Assembly (NCBI RefSeq): GCF_032362555.1
Contig: NC_083526.1
Coordinates: 5,724,001 to 5,788,000 of the forward strand
Length of the DNA: 64,000 nucleotides
Direction of reading: 5' to 3'
From: Amyelois transitella
Taxonomy: Eukaryota; Arthropoda; Insecta; Lepidoptera; Pyralidae
Part shown: positions 32,201 through 35,014 of the stretch, one piece after another
Position numbering within the stretch: position 1 is the stretch's first letter
Layout: each line of letters begins with the position of its first letter
Notes under the pieces: generated by a model
What the model was told of the DNA's origin: nothing
Seen by the model: only the letters and a program-made list of their open reading frames with translations
Database searches by the model: none
Program-made: the position numbers and the translations under genes

Positions 32201-35014
32201 TGCTAGCCTACCACCTAAACGATGATTACCTATTTTAGAGTGATCGCATATGTAATATTTCTATTTCACATCAAATTGTCATAATTGACGTACTTATAAC
32301 TGTAAGTTTTGACTATACGCGATGATTTACGGTTCCATTTTTTTTTCAGGTATAAAACCTCAAATAGTGGGATACGCGTGTGCGGCTTTGAACAGCAAAG
32401 AGTTTTACAAGAAACAGGAGCTAGCCTGGATTCCAGAGATGTGTAGGAAGTACCCGGAGGAGCTCATCGAGAGGGAAGACCTTAGTCCTGCAGCAAAGGT
32501 GAGTGTGGACTTTTAGCGGAAGCGAAGATTTGGGCTCGACCGCCACTTAAGGAAAGATCTTCCGCCAGGCTGGTGTGACGCTTGGGGTACCGCGCGACAG
32601 ACGATGTTGGATCGGAGGTTGTATTTATGCTTTTGCTTGCGCGATTTAGGATACGCACTGTTATTGGCTGATGTCGTCAAGTGATGGCCTGTGGTGTAGA
32701 GATGTCCCCACAGACTAACATGAAATGACTGTTTCGACTCGATTTGAGTACAGAGTAAATAAAGATAACACTTTTTGAGTCGATAACGACTCTGCTACAT
32801 ATATTTATTACGCATTTAAAGCAACCCCGATCGTAGTCTCCATCGATGTAGACACAGACTTGAATGGGAGACCGCAAGTAGCATAAAAAACATCTCAATC
32901 TCCTCCATGATTTGGATCCCATGTTAAACTGTTGATATCGACTGTCACCACATGATAGTAGTAACGCCACGTCAGATGTCTTTAGGTCTGTCTTTGGGTC
33001 GCAATCTCGTAAGACGGTATTTCCAATAAATACGAACAGCGGTATCAGAGTTATACCAAATCTGGACTGTGATAGATCAAATACGGTTTCAATCCTGCAA
33101 AAGTTGTGGAGAAATAAGTCTCAGGAGTCGTTTTGTATAAAAACCTGACTCACCCAACACAGGATTCATGGTCAAAGGTTCCGGACCCCTCCAGAGTGAT
33201 GAACATGCAATCGGGACAAAATACAGAAGGAAGAAGAAGACCACATCTGGACTGAGTCCTAGTCTGAAGCCCAAATCATATTGTTCCAGGACTGCATCCG
33301 CCACTTCCACCAGTTCAGCTCGCTAGAGCGCGCCCCAGACAGCGTGACCCGCAGCCACCCGGCGCTGCTGACGTGCTGCGTGCTCAGCGCCGCGCTGCGC
33401 GACCACACGGCCAGCGCCCGGCTGCTGCAGAGCGTGCTGGCCGCGCTCAAGGCCCACGGTCAGTGTGTCAGTGTGTCTCTAGCGGCCCCGCAGTCACCGG
33501 CGCTGCTGACGTGCTGCGTGCTCAGCGCCGCGCTGCGCGACCACACGGCCAGCGCCCGGCTGCTGCAGAGCGTGCTGGCCGCGCTCAAGGCCCACGGTCA
33601 GTGTGTCAGTGTGTCTCTAGCGGCCCCGCAGTCACCGGCGCTGCTGACGTGCTGCGTGCTCAGCGCCGCGCTGCGCGACCACACGGCCAGCGCCCGGCTG
33701 CTGCAGAGCGTGCTGGCCGCGCTCAAGGCCCACGGTCAGTGTGTCAGTGTGTCTCTAGCGGCCCCGCAGTCACCGGCGCTGCTGACGTGCTGCGTGCTCA
33801 GCGCCGCGCTGCGCGACCACACGGCCAGCGCCCGGCTGCTGCAGAGCGTGCTGGCCGCGCTCAAGGCCCACGGTCAGTGTGTCAGTGTGTCTCTAGCGGC
33901 CCCGCAGTCACCGGCGCTGCTGACGTGCTGCGTGCTCAGCGCCGCGCTGCGCGACCACACGGCCAGCGCCCGGCTGCTGCAGAGCGTGCTGGCCGCGCTC
34001 AAGGCCCACGGTCAGTGTGTCAGTGTGTCTCTAGCGGCCCCGCAGTCACCGGCGCTGCTGACGTGCTGCGTGCTCAGCGCCGCGCTGCGCGACCACACGG
34101 CCAGCGCCCGGCTGCTGCAGAGCGTGCTGGCCGCGCTCAAGGCCCACGGTCAGTGTGTCAGTGTGTCTCTAGCGGCCCCGCAGTCACCGGCGCTGCTGAC
34201 GTGCTGCGTGCTCAGCGCCGCGCTGCGCGACCACACGGCCAGCGCCCGGCTGCTGCAGAGCGTGCTGGCCGCGCTCAAGGCCCACGGTCAGTGTGTCAGT
34301 GTGTCTCTAGCGGCCCCGCAGTCACCGGCGCTGCTGACGTGCTGCGTGCTCAGCGCCGCGCTGCGCGACCACACGGCCAGCGCCCGGCTGCTGCAGAGCG
34401 TGCTGGCCGCGCTCAAGGCCCACGGTCAGTGTGTCAGTGTGTCTCTAGCGGCCCCGCAGTCACCGGCGCTGCTGACGTGCTGCGTGCTCAGCACATGAAT
34501 ACATACATATATATAGCTGAAGGTCGTACCCGTAAAGCCGACCAGCTAACCTGTCTTAAGATTTTCAGAGGGCAACCGCGATCAGGCATACAGGCATCCG
34601 AATAAAAGACTTTAATGAGCAGCTTCATATCCATTATTCTGACTGATGTATTAGTTTGATTGTTTACAGTGATTTGACCAGTATATAATATAGTTACACG
34701 ACAGCTTTCGTAGTTAACGTAAATTCTCTTTTTTCTCGCAACGATGATAATTTCCATAAAAAGTAGTAATTCTAAAAGTCTTTTCTATCTCTGTGTCAAA
34801 TTTCATATATTTTTTTTGTGTTTATTCTATACAATATATTATAAACATTTCGTTTAAGTATATTTATAAATTAAAACCTTCATTTACAGGTGCAAGCGGC
34901 GTTCACGCGTGTATAAACGAAACCGACATGTACCTACACCAGTTCTATAGCAAACTGGGTTTCGTTGAACTTCACCGCGACTCGGGAAAGGTTTACCTGG
35001 CCAGAGCCTTCTAG
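14262..35014 (+). CDS. Oga: O-GlcNAcase (protein O-GlcNAc hydrolase)
   Basis: Removes O-linked GlcNAc from Ser/Thr of nuclear and cytosolic proteins, the reverse of OGT. Exons: 14262-14328, 14442-14493, 15126-15354, 15993-16097, 16950-17112, 18919-19047, 20588-20731, 21355-21469, 22088-22173, 22629-22840, 24808-25183, 25913-26031, 26561-26649, 27228-27426, 28413-28587, 29436-29489, 30147-30334, 31096-31184, 31939-32066, 32350-32498, 33290-33458, 34890-35014. All phases agree, giving 1053 aa (human about 916). Order: GH84 domain starting [14 protein letters not shown] at residue 16, with catalytic Asp pair D130-D131 in LLFDDIE; an acidic Ser/Thr/Pro-rich middle; a stalk; and a C-terminal GNAT-like part ([20 protein letters not shown]). 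Exons 10, 15 and 21 are followed by tandem copies of themselves, so the donors used, and the true length, may vary. Confidence 0.93.
15781..15956 (+). mobile_element. Helitron-like non-autonomous element
   Basis: Begins TCCTTATATTATAAATGC after an A and ends GGTGCAGCTAG before T, as Helitrons do. It carries the family's CAGATTTTCATGAAATTTGG segment. It ends about 36 bp before the acceptor of the exon that encodes the catalytic aspartates. Confidence 0.7.
15993..16097 (+). other. Oga: GH84 catalytic exon of O-GlcNAcase
   Basis: A 35-codon, phase 0 exon encoding [16 protein letters not shown]. The adjacent aspartates are the family's substrate-assisted catalytic pair (human D174/D175). Both are intact, so this copy should be enzymatically competent. 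Confidence 0.9.
16205..16745 (-). repeat. two LINE 3' tails, family G
   Basis: Reversed family G copies at 16205-16455 and 16663-16745, each starting with (GAATA)n-like tails then GATTTATTTTCAAAATTGG. The second is cut short just before an (AT)n-rich stretch at 16748-16780. Another short reversed copy lies at 15690-15750. Confidence 0.75.
17113..18918 (+). other. O-GlcNAcase intron full of family A and B fragments
   Basis: Contains forward family A pieces at 17141-17215 and 17242-17460, reversed pieces at 17571-17694 and 17970-18152, a reversed Helitron remnant near 18190-18310, and a reversed family B tail (18740-18882) ending about 36 bp before the next acceptor. Confidence 0.65.
18740..18882 (-). 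repeat. retroposon family B 3' end
   Basis: Minus-strand translation gives the decayed C-terminus seen in better copies ([20 protein letters not shown], then [12 protein letters not shown]), followed by a (TATG)n tail. Copies also at 20120-20252, 28084-28400, 35735-35915, 48880-49080 and 63668-63840. Confidence 0.8.
19128..19365 (-). repeat. LINE 3' tail, family G
   Basis: Reversed copy beginning with a (GAATA)n tail. It is nearly the same length as the copy at 16205-16455. Confidence 0.75.
19677..20060 (+). repeat. tRNA-derived SINE (third type) with long tail
   Basis: The tRNA-like head includes CGGCCACGTGCTTGG and a box B-like GGTTCGAATCCCACG near 19739. The body contains GGTGAGGGAAAACATCGTGAGG and GGATCCAATACGGGTTAGG, and ends with GGATGCAACCGG and an AAGAAG-rich tail. 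Tail fragments recur at about 3540-3690 (-), 21840-21970, 33100-33240, 37880-38010, 40700-40870 and 46660-46860. Confidence 0.75.
20120..20252 (+). repeat. retroposon family B 3' end
   Basis: Forward copy encoding the remnant [20 protein letters not shown] and then the stop and TTTATGTATG tail. The tail was later split by a Helitron at 20253-20531. Confidence 0.8.
20253..20531 (+). mobile_element. non-autonomous Helitron, complete ends
   Basis: Starts TCTCTACTAATATT after A and ends GGCACAGCTAG before T, the A/T insertion and CTAG end of Helitrons. A GC-rich ACGCGGACAAAGTCGCGGG motif sits just before the end. The flanks are both (TATG)n, showing insertion into the family B tail. A 5'-truncated relative lies at 62515-62765. 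Confidence 0.85.
20886..21082 (-). repeat. family A retroposon, diverged
   Basis: Reversed copy with internal losses, from (CATA)n to GTCGCCTTTTACGACATC. A further forward fragment lies at 21500-21590. Confidence 0.7.
22330..22500 (-). repeat. LINE 3' tail, family F
   Basis: Reversed and diverged copy ending near the GTCAACTTCACAAT motif. It lies in the intron before the duplicated exon 10. Confidence 0.65.
22756..24260 (+). repeat. Oga: tandem array of O-GlcNAcase exon 10 end plus intron, ~192-bp unit
   Basis: Eight splice donors (ACT/GTAAGT) lie at 22841, 23034, 23226, 23418, 23607, 23799, 23992 and 24162. Spacings are 193, 192, 192, 189, 192, 193 and 170 bp. Each unit has the last 72 bp of exon 10, the donor, and about 120 bp of intron ending in GAATATCGTACAG, itself acceptor-like. 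Units 2-7 differ from the exon by only a few bases. Unit 5 has a 3-bp loss that makes TAA in the exon frame. The last unit and further scraps to about 24560 are strongly decayed. Confidence 0.95.
24260..24807 (+). other. Oga: O-GlcNAcase intron 10, distal part
   Basis: Contains further decayed pieces of the array's intron part (CCAAATATGCTACCTTG-like motifs near 24210, 24340, 24445 and 24520) and a short SINE-tail fragment (24640-24720) before the acceptor at 24808. Confidence 0.6.
25205..25372 (+). repeat. family A retroposon, 5'-truncated
   Basis: Forward copy starting near GGCTATGGATTAGGCAATC and ending with the tail ATAGACGTTATTATATTTATG. A family G-like fragment follows near 25605-25690. 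Confidence 0.8.
26893..27125 (+). repeat. family A retroposon
   Basis: Forward copy with a degraded head (CCATGTAGTTTCC) and degraded tail. It lies about 100 bp before the acceptor at 27228. Confidence 0.8.
27427..28412 (+). other. Oga: O-GlcNAcase intron 14
   Basis: Contains a tRNA-like SINE remnant (27520-27600, box B-like GGTTCGAGTCTTAG), a decayed copy of the end of exon 14 (27620-27735), AT-rich sequence, and a family B retroposon end (28084-28400) that runs up to the acceptor at 28413. Confidence 0.7.
28084..28400 (+). pseudogene. non-LTR reverse transcriptase C-terminus, family B
   Basis: 5'-truncated retrotransposon end. From 28099 it encodes [11 protein letters not shown] and then [15 protein letters not shown], the conserved C-terminal tail of insect non-LTR polymerase ORFs. 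The frame then breaks, continuing as MNVDEAKEI in another frame, followed by a (TATG)n tail at 28385-28406. The tail touches the acceptor of O-GlcNAcase exon 15. Confidence 0.8.
28469..29057 (+). repeat. Oga: in-frame tandem array of O-GlcNAcase exon 15 end, 183-bp unit
   Basis: GCGTTTGACGCGCCGG recurs at 28469, 28652, 28835 and 29018, exactly 183 bp (61 codons) apart. Three units are complete with donors (CTGG/GTCAGT) at 28588, 28771 and 28954; the fourth is cut after about 40 bp. Units differ at only a few bases. Because 183 is a multiple of three and the intron parts have no stop, the frame stays open from 28413 to 29078. Confidence 0.95.
29125..29325 (+). pseudogene. old diverged copy of O-GlcNAcase exon 15
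   Basis: Encodes RRIINVP and YVWELG in the same order as exon 15 (RRIINAP, YVWELC), in much more AT-rich DNA. It lies just after the fresh array and looks like a remnant of an earlier duplication round. Confidence 0.6.
29930..30112 (+). repeat. family A retroposon, 5'-truncated
   Basis: Forward copy from GTCGTAGAAGGCGACTAATGG to a TATGTACGTATGTATG tail. It ends about 34 bp before the acceptor at 30147. Confidence 0.82.
30385..30800 (-). repeat. family F LINE tail and reversed family A copy
   Basis: 30385-30610 is a reversed family F tail. 30616-30800 is a reversed family A retroposon lacking its head. A 45-bp direct repeat (TTTCC-AAGGACTAGAATT) at 30360-30445 brackets the left edge. Confidence 0.75.
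30822..31075 (+). repeat. family A retroposon
   Basis: Nearly full forward copy starting GTGCCGTGTGGTTCCCGGC. Its (TATG)n tail ends about 20 bp before the acceptor at 31096. Confidence 0.88.
31185..31938 (+). other. Oga: O-GlcNAcase intron 18
   Basis: AT-rich. In its last 150 bp the intron end and exon start are echoed: CCCAAAATATGACTTTTCAAATTAGTGGTTCC at about 31830 (decayed) against the true acceptor context ending at 31938. Nothing else was recognised. Confidence 0.5.
32499..33289 (+). other. Oga: O-GlcNAcase intron 20
   Basis: No gene seen. A SINE-tail fragment lies at about 33080-33240. The remainder is of average composition without a recognised element. Confidence 0.5.
33354..34492 (+). 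repeat. Oga: in-frame tandem array of O-GlcNAcase exon 21 end, 138-bp unit
   Basis: Donors (CACG/GTCAGT) lie at 33459, 33597, 33735, 33873, 34011, 34149, 34287 and 34425, exactly 138 bp (46 codons) apart. A ninth unit is cut at about 34492. I find no differences among units 2-8 by eye. Each unit is 103 bp of exon plus 35 bp of intron with an acceptor-like CCCCGCAG. The whole array is one open frame ending TGA at 34496-34498. Identity this high means very recent expansion or an assembly effect. Confidence 0.95.

Follow-up and report, generated by a model that had tools for sequence, protein, structure and literature searches.

Splice donors carried by tandem repeats have been described in the human gene ABCA7, where the variable number tandem repeat (VNTR) of intron 18 starts at the donor of the exon and its first GT is the canonical donor (PMC5954066). 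In the passages of that report on which we draw, retention of one unit, through the second donor, amounts to 2 ± 1% of transcripts, on one reading of the word "respectively" in the sentence concerned; the retained transcripts are out of frame and rose once decay was blocked, which makes this value a lower bound. The effect that grows with the length of the VNTR is the skipping of the next exon, exon 19 (PMC5954066). Selected passages on human segmental duplications describe internal tandem repeats in which minisatellites at exon-intron boundaries alter gene structure, and transcripts keeping the repeat within the exon were reported (PMC2812944). Two further reports, in the parts consulted, likewise describe introns gained when coding sequence is duplicated in tandem (PMC2891723; PMC4974935). 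In the human O-GlcNAcase gene, according to an excerpt, a short isoform reads into the intron after an exon (PMC9180253). PMC6692358 was set aside as a parallel, the donors in the excerpt lying outside the VNTR. Here we analyse a window of 64,000 nucleotides, C22:5724001-5788000 of a 327-Mb, 33-contig chromosome-scale assembly, in which a 138-bp tandem array is formed by the end of an O-GlcNAcase exon together with its donor and the first part of the following intron. We consider it probable that this array is an exon-end minisatellite of recent origin, with splicing chiefly at its first donor and perhaps minor in-frame leakage, and that it is tolerated rather than tuned.

Between nt 33359 and 34354 each base equals the base 138 positions downstream, over 996 bp with 0 differences. 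The self-match agrees with the initial annotation, which had noted a tandem repeat without differences. Tandem Repeats Finder (TRF) calls nt 33348-34492 with a period of 138, 8.3 copies and 99% identity. That annotation was also right that a unit comprises exon end, donor and intron, but its division into 103 + 35 bp does not hold; the exactly repeated unit has 100 bp of exon end followed by 38 bp that start with the donor. The unit begins within the exon and does not include the acceptor that precedes nt 33290. Tandem duplication of the whole exon is therefore ruled out, as the unit has no acceptor of its own. A reading of the copies as repeated cassette exons was set aside: AG sites lie inside the unit (CTCTAG and CCGCAG), but the introns separating neighbouring units would be no longer than 24-35 nt. 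One unit compared with the 327-Mb assembly gave at least 9 matches, every one inside the O-GlcNAcase array. The copy number comes from a single assembly and likely differs between individuals. The zero differences among the units could also be produced by an assembler that had expanded a smaller number of units. We regard such an artefact as highly improbable, since the assembly is of chromosome scale, the units of sister arrays differ from one another (88-97% by TRF; 83-84% in copies in a neighbouring NELF-A-like gene), and the tails of such arrays are degenerate.

A pattern scan and the reading frame confirm the eight in-phase GTCAGT donors proposed before (Table 1), all of phase 1, so that a series of donors, one per unit, starts with that of the exon, as in the ABCA7 kind of VNTR. 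According to the list of open reading frames (ORFs) and the translation, the unspliced frame is open from the exon across all units, 46 residues each, to a stop ending at nt 34498, again as annotated. The open frame is weak evidence, because base composition alone leads one to expect it: when the unit was shuffled at equal composition, a given frame was open in 49% of trials. A second, wrong forward frame of the unit is also open. The chance of a period divisible by three is one third, and an in-phase, stop-free unit is expected in roughly one array out of six.

The host gene is identified by homology. NAGidase (PF07555), the GH84 catalytic domain, matches two exons of the window with E values of 8.6e-26 and 8.2e-08; a catalytic-domain exon matches O-GlcNAcase in the PDB (E 1.9e-15), and a stalk-domain exon matches the O-GlcNAcase stalk (E 9.5e-05). 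Once joined, the three exons at the array match the C-terminal acetyltransferase-like (pHAT) domain of O-GlcNAcase, in 5m7r over residues 776-902 (E 2.8e-10) and in 6r45 (E 4.7e-08), which places the insertion point where the initial annotation had put it. For this query we joined the exons from donor 1 to nt 34890, ahead of which the sequence has the acceptor expected there. The alignment to the solved O-GlcNAcase has no gap around the junction; therefore donor 1 joined to nt 34890 should yield the main, normal protein. We take 5m7r to be the human enzyme and 6r45 the Trichoplax enzyme. Solved pHAT domains, as far as the excerpt of the report goes, do not bind acetyl-CoA and keep a putative protein-binding cleft (PMC12494797).

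The initial annotation had read the array as a means of tuning the length of the enzyme, donor choice inserting 0 to 7 copies of the 46-residue unit into the pHAT domain to give a functional series of isoforms. Eight equal in-phase donors, a stop-free unit and the divisibility by three of all three O-GlcNAcase array periods (138, 183 and 192) would suit such a series, as would the synonymous lean in the copies of two older arrays discussed below. The proposal is possible but goes unsupported here, and we think it quite improbable. Frame and freedom from stops come cheaply (approximately 0.49 × one third), and the product of donor 1 aligns gap-free with the solved enzyme. The insert would fall inside a conserved domain, and AlphaFold2, run on a single sequence, gave no confident structure for the read-through frame of the array (mean predicted local distance difference test, pLDDT, 44); a second read-through frame modelled likewise reached 40, and both values are too low to be informative. 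In the same gene the 192-bp array is closed to read-through, and like-built arrays within kinase domains would hardly make useful inserts. The small share of one-unit retention in ABCA7 argues in the same direction.

Two more arrays in O-GlcNAcase share the build of exon 3′ end, donor and intron start. A TRF survey of other loci overturned our own assumption that O-GlcNAcase is unique. The survey set comprised 33 stretches at kinase or AAA exons (L039-L071, 157.5 kb), picked for short open frames and hence probably from multi-exon genes; a second set consisted of the 30 loci of the best kinase matches (L009-L038), mostly long single exons. The survey combined TRF, self-BLAST and reading and is not a blind count. 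In 7 of the 33 loci an exon identified by Pfam or PDB is partly copied into the following intron. The copy extends to the donor in five of these (L045, L053, L054, L063 and L066, the donor part of L066 by eye), and the copies of L068 and L071 end short of it. The GCN2-like array (L054 4027-4978) has seven units at steps of 132-138 bp and retains the donor in 7/7, while the exon parts of its copies differ by 10-18% from the true exon; the third copy in L063 has lost its donor. No exon-end copy was established in the 30 loci of the second set, where the 117-bp arrays of L016/L018 were left unread. Unclassified self-matches (e.g. L016/L018, L042, L050, L058 and L059) stand outside the count of 7/33, as do exon ends found by eye at L060 802-968 and at L063 1-232, 1021-1145, 3560-3780 and 4504-4967. 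Self-matches in L037, L041, L048, L070 and parts of L060 are transposon-like tails or plain intronic repeats and were left out.

The L063 stretch shows further features. At nt 4504-4967 the terminal exon of the kinase gene is repeated with its stop codon, by eye an array without a donor, and over nt 4504-5000 the terminal-exon units are linked by TA microsatellites of increasing length. Up to five exon-end arrays or remnants lie within nt 1-5000, four of them recognized by eye only.

The direction of copying was examined by a fixed test on 59 exons, 47 selected by hidden Markov model (HMM) match and 12 in the window with bounds set by eye. The 3′ end was copied downstream in 6 exons and the 5′ end upstream in 0; the 3′ end was found upstream in 0, and the 5′ query downstream in 3, all in exons already counted. 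Four of the six positive exons are the window exons that prompted the test. In the independent part the 3′ end was copied downstream in 2/47 vs 0/47 for the 5′ end upstream; the 47 do not include the affected exons of L045, L053, L054, L063 and L071. A one-sided pattern at the 3′ end is supported, not precisely measured. What is new is that this pattern recurs in the genome, as measured on a small sample; in one literature collection, consulted mostly at the level of titles and abstracts, we recognised no report of exon-end arrays as a genome-wide class, nor of donor arrays in O-GlcNAcase.

These observations make it most likely that the genome repeatedly produces and tolerates duplications of this kind, and that the O-GlcNAcase array is one of them and not a device for setting the length of one enzyme. 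A tandem duplication beginning within the exon and running into the intron would have taken in the last 100 bp, the donor and the intron start; unequal exchange or slippage would then have multiplied the unit, so recently that zero differences have arisen. Duplications from an exon into the following intron may persist because normal mRNA can still be made from the first, upstream donor, and the surplus copies would be left to decay within the intron. The repetition of a terminal exon with its stop codon in L063 fits such tolerance, which would extend to whatever lies beyond a functioning end. The O-GlcNAcase pre-mRNA would offer eight equal donors, with donor 1 (nt 33459) to nt 34890 as the main product, and minor leakage to later donors would add 46 residues per step. 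Since leakage would be in frame in O-GlcNAcase, it may produce a series of longer proteins at a low level. The array, its donors and their phase, the homology, the similar copies in further genes and the decay of older copies are observed; the choice of donor, the low level of leakage and the persistence of the arrays through tolerance instead of benefit are our inference.

Whether the frame can be read beyond donor 1 bears on this. By translation it continues through the 138-bp and the 183-bp arrays of O-GlcNAcase and, in L053, into the second copy. A stop is met in 3/6 arrays, namely the 192-bp O-GlcNAcase array (just beyond the donor), L054 (GCN2) and L063 (CaMK-like); therefore a full-length protein there needs donor 1. 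Codons of the copies were compared with the true exon, changes common to copies being counted per copy, with 22-26% expected to be synonymous. L054 gave 19 synonymous, 34 amino-acid and 6 stop differences, the stops falling in 2/6 related copies; L063 gave 3 synonymous and 9 amino-acid differences, and L053 2 and 5. From these codons the copies of L054 and L063 look untranslated.

Several results weigh against a history of simple tolerance. L066 leans synonymous (7 synonymous, 7 amino-acid and 1 stop, 7/15), as does L068 (6 synonymous and 5 amino-acid, 6/11), the expectation for these two being 23-26%. In the 183-bp and 192-bp arrays taken together 6/8 distinct changes are synonymous (p ~0.01 vs 30%; a by-eye count that leaves out a 3-nt indel placing TAA after CAG). 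Such a lean could mean that the copies are translated. Donor neighbourhoods are less variable than the rest of the unit in three arrays (6/90 vs 67/402 columns, p 0.014), for a window picked after the alignment was seen. Eight equal donors could also favour the donor nearest to the acceptor. One weak copy on the acceptor side occurs in L062, at 68% over 103 bp, below the threshold of the direction test. A synonymous lean can also arise from changes in the constrained true exon, and old copies can show it. Together, the lean and the lower variability around the donors hint at the use of some donors without proving it. Periods divisible by three are 192, 183 and 138 in O-GlcNAcase, 171 in L053 and 138 in L054, as are the offsets 90 (L060), 168 (L071) and 177 (NELF-A-like); 191 and 121 (L063), 451 (L045), 151 (L068), 515 (L066) and 203 (NELF-A-like) are not. 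As a mark of selection on leaky donors this is suggestive at most.

The lower variability around the donors could have another source, if the copies served as decoy or spare donors that affect the rate of splicing or the choice of a neighbouring exon, for which the skipping of ABCA7 exon 19 offers a precedent. Given that the p value of 0.014 is post hoc and that some decayed copies have lost the donor (the first NELF-A-like copy and the third of L063), such a role seems improbable.

The arrays could further be the product of a mutational process directed at splice donors or exon ends, linked for instance to transcription or repeat-rich intron starts, in addition to tolerance. Six of the nine TRF arrays with a period >=100 (window and L039-L068) span an exon-donor junction, and 5/6 of the junction exons are identified by homology, that of the 192-bp array by frame and position. 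If 8-20% of the sequence were at risk, the chance of this would be 2e-5 to 3e-3. This share is assumed, not counted, and 3/9 arrays come from the window that prompted the question. Copies of exons can also be recognised for a longer time, one copy being under constraint, and the terminal-exon array of L063, read by eye, has no donor. A directed process is thus rather unlikely. In a stronger form, an active process would copy exon 3′ ends with their donors into introns, young arrays would offer several equal donors in phase and thereby give many genes low-level in-frame repeat isoforms, the donors of the copies would be weakly selected, and O-GlcNAcase would be the extreme case; we give this form little credence. 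If it were true, the three arrays of O-GlcNAcase would amount to a natural experiment in donor competition.

Around the two older arrays decay is visible by eye, with remnants trailing the 183-bp array to ~29240 and a tail of the 192-bp array that reaches ~24250. The exon that feeds the latter has no Pfam match. An acceptor-like site, ACAG/TTACAA, lies ahead of most copies of the 192-bp array, for which TRF also gives a 381-bp period. In the neighbouring gene an upstream exon (nt 44405-44680) is NELF-A_N by Pfam (E 6.2e-34) and also matches NELF-A in the PDB; the exon whose end is copied has no significant PDB match itself. Its copies keep the donor position, with GC in the first and GT in the second. 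At nt 122-1253 of the window, two overlapping frames hold by eye what we take to be mariner-like transposase remnants.

Table 1. Features of the window and exon-end copies at the surveyed loci.
Feature	Position (nt)	Strand	Basis
138-bp tandem array, ~8.2 identical units	33359..34492	+	exact self-match, TRF
Eight identical GTCAGT donors, 33459 + 138k, k = 0 to 7 (33459, 33597, 33735, 33873, 34011, 34149, 34287, 34425)	33459..34430	+	pattern scan, phase
Stop codon closing the read-through frame when nothing is spliced	34496..34498	+	ORF list, translation
O-GlcNAcase pHAT exon (exon 21 of the initial annotation), ends at donor 1	33290..33458	+	acceptor and donor sequence, pHAT match
Last coding exon, with the acceptor for the array donors	34890..35014	+	sequence, part of pHAT match
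O-GlcNAcase stalk-domain exon, 3′ end feeds 183-bp array	28413..28587	+	PDB match E 9.5e-05; start read from sequence
183-bp array, 3.2 units, 97%, GTCAGT donors 28588, 28771, 28954	28469..29056	+	TRF, sequence, pattern scan
O-GlcNAcase exon, 3′ end feeds 192-bp array	22629..22840	+	position and reading frame only
192-bp array, 7.1 units, 94%, GTAAGT donor	22765..24136	+	TRF, sequence, alignment
Exon of neighbouring gene, taken as NELF-A	46074..46223	+	upstream exon, by eye
Two decayed copies of the NELF-A-like exon end in its next intron	46342..46610	+	self-comparison 83-84%, sequence
L045, PASK: copy 96%, 451 bp on			
L053, MST/Hippo: 171-bp array			
L054, GCN2: 138-bp array, seven units			
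L063, CaMK-like kinase: 191-bp array			
L066: copy 75%			donor part by eye
L068, kinase: copy 88%			
L071, AAA: 28 bp copy at 96%			

Eight identical donors at steps of 138 nt with one acceptor amount to a clean natural experiment on the choice of the spliceosome among equal donors, each choice leaving a readable in-frame size tag. If the wider pattern is true, either duplications that cross a donor are tolerated and those that cross an acceptor are not, or exon ends are preferentially duplicated; either outcome bears on the growth of introns and the origin of new exons and introns. Any annotated long-read assembly would allow a genome-wide measurement of the exon-end pattern. Gene prediction may insert spurious repeats into such proteins.

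The O-GlcNAcase array resembles the ABCA7 VNTR in being a tandem array in which each unit bears a donor in series with that of the exon. According to the passages cited, the ABCA7 unit is 25 bp, intronic, out of frame and slightly varied, whereas that of O-GlcNAcase is 138 bp, of which 100 bp are coding, in frame and identical between units. The work on segmental duplications compared recent human paralogues, and its passages considered here contain no trailing exon-end copies of ordinary genes. The reports of intron gain share, in the parts seen, the tandem duplication near splice signals with one copy turning into intron; there, however, a new intron arises inside an exon, whereas here the intron is already present and receives copies of an exon end and its donor. 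The short human O-GlcNAcase differs, as far as its excerpt goes, in having a single 15-residue tail without a repeat and in missing the entire pHAT domain. The O-GlcNAcase array is thus a donor-bearing VNTR, a known kind of element, and its chief interest lies in the recurring class of exon-end copies to which it belongs in this genome.

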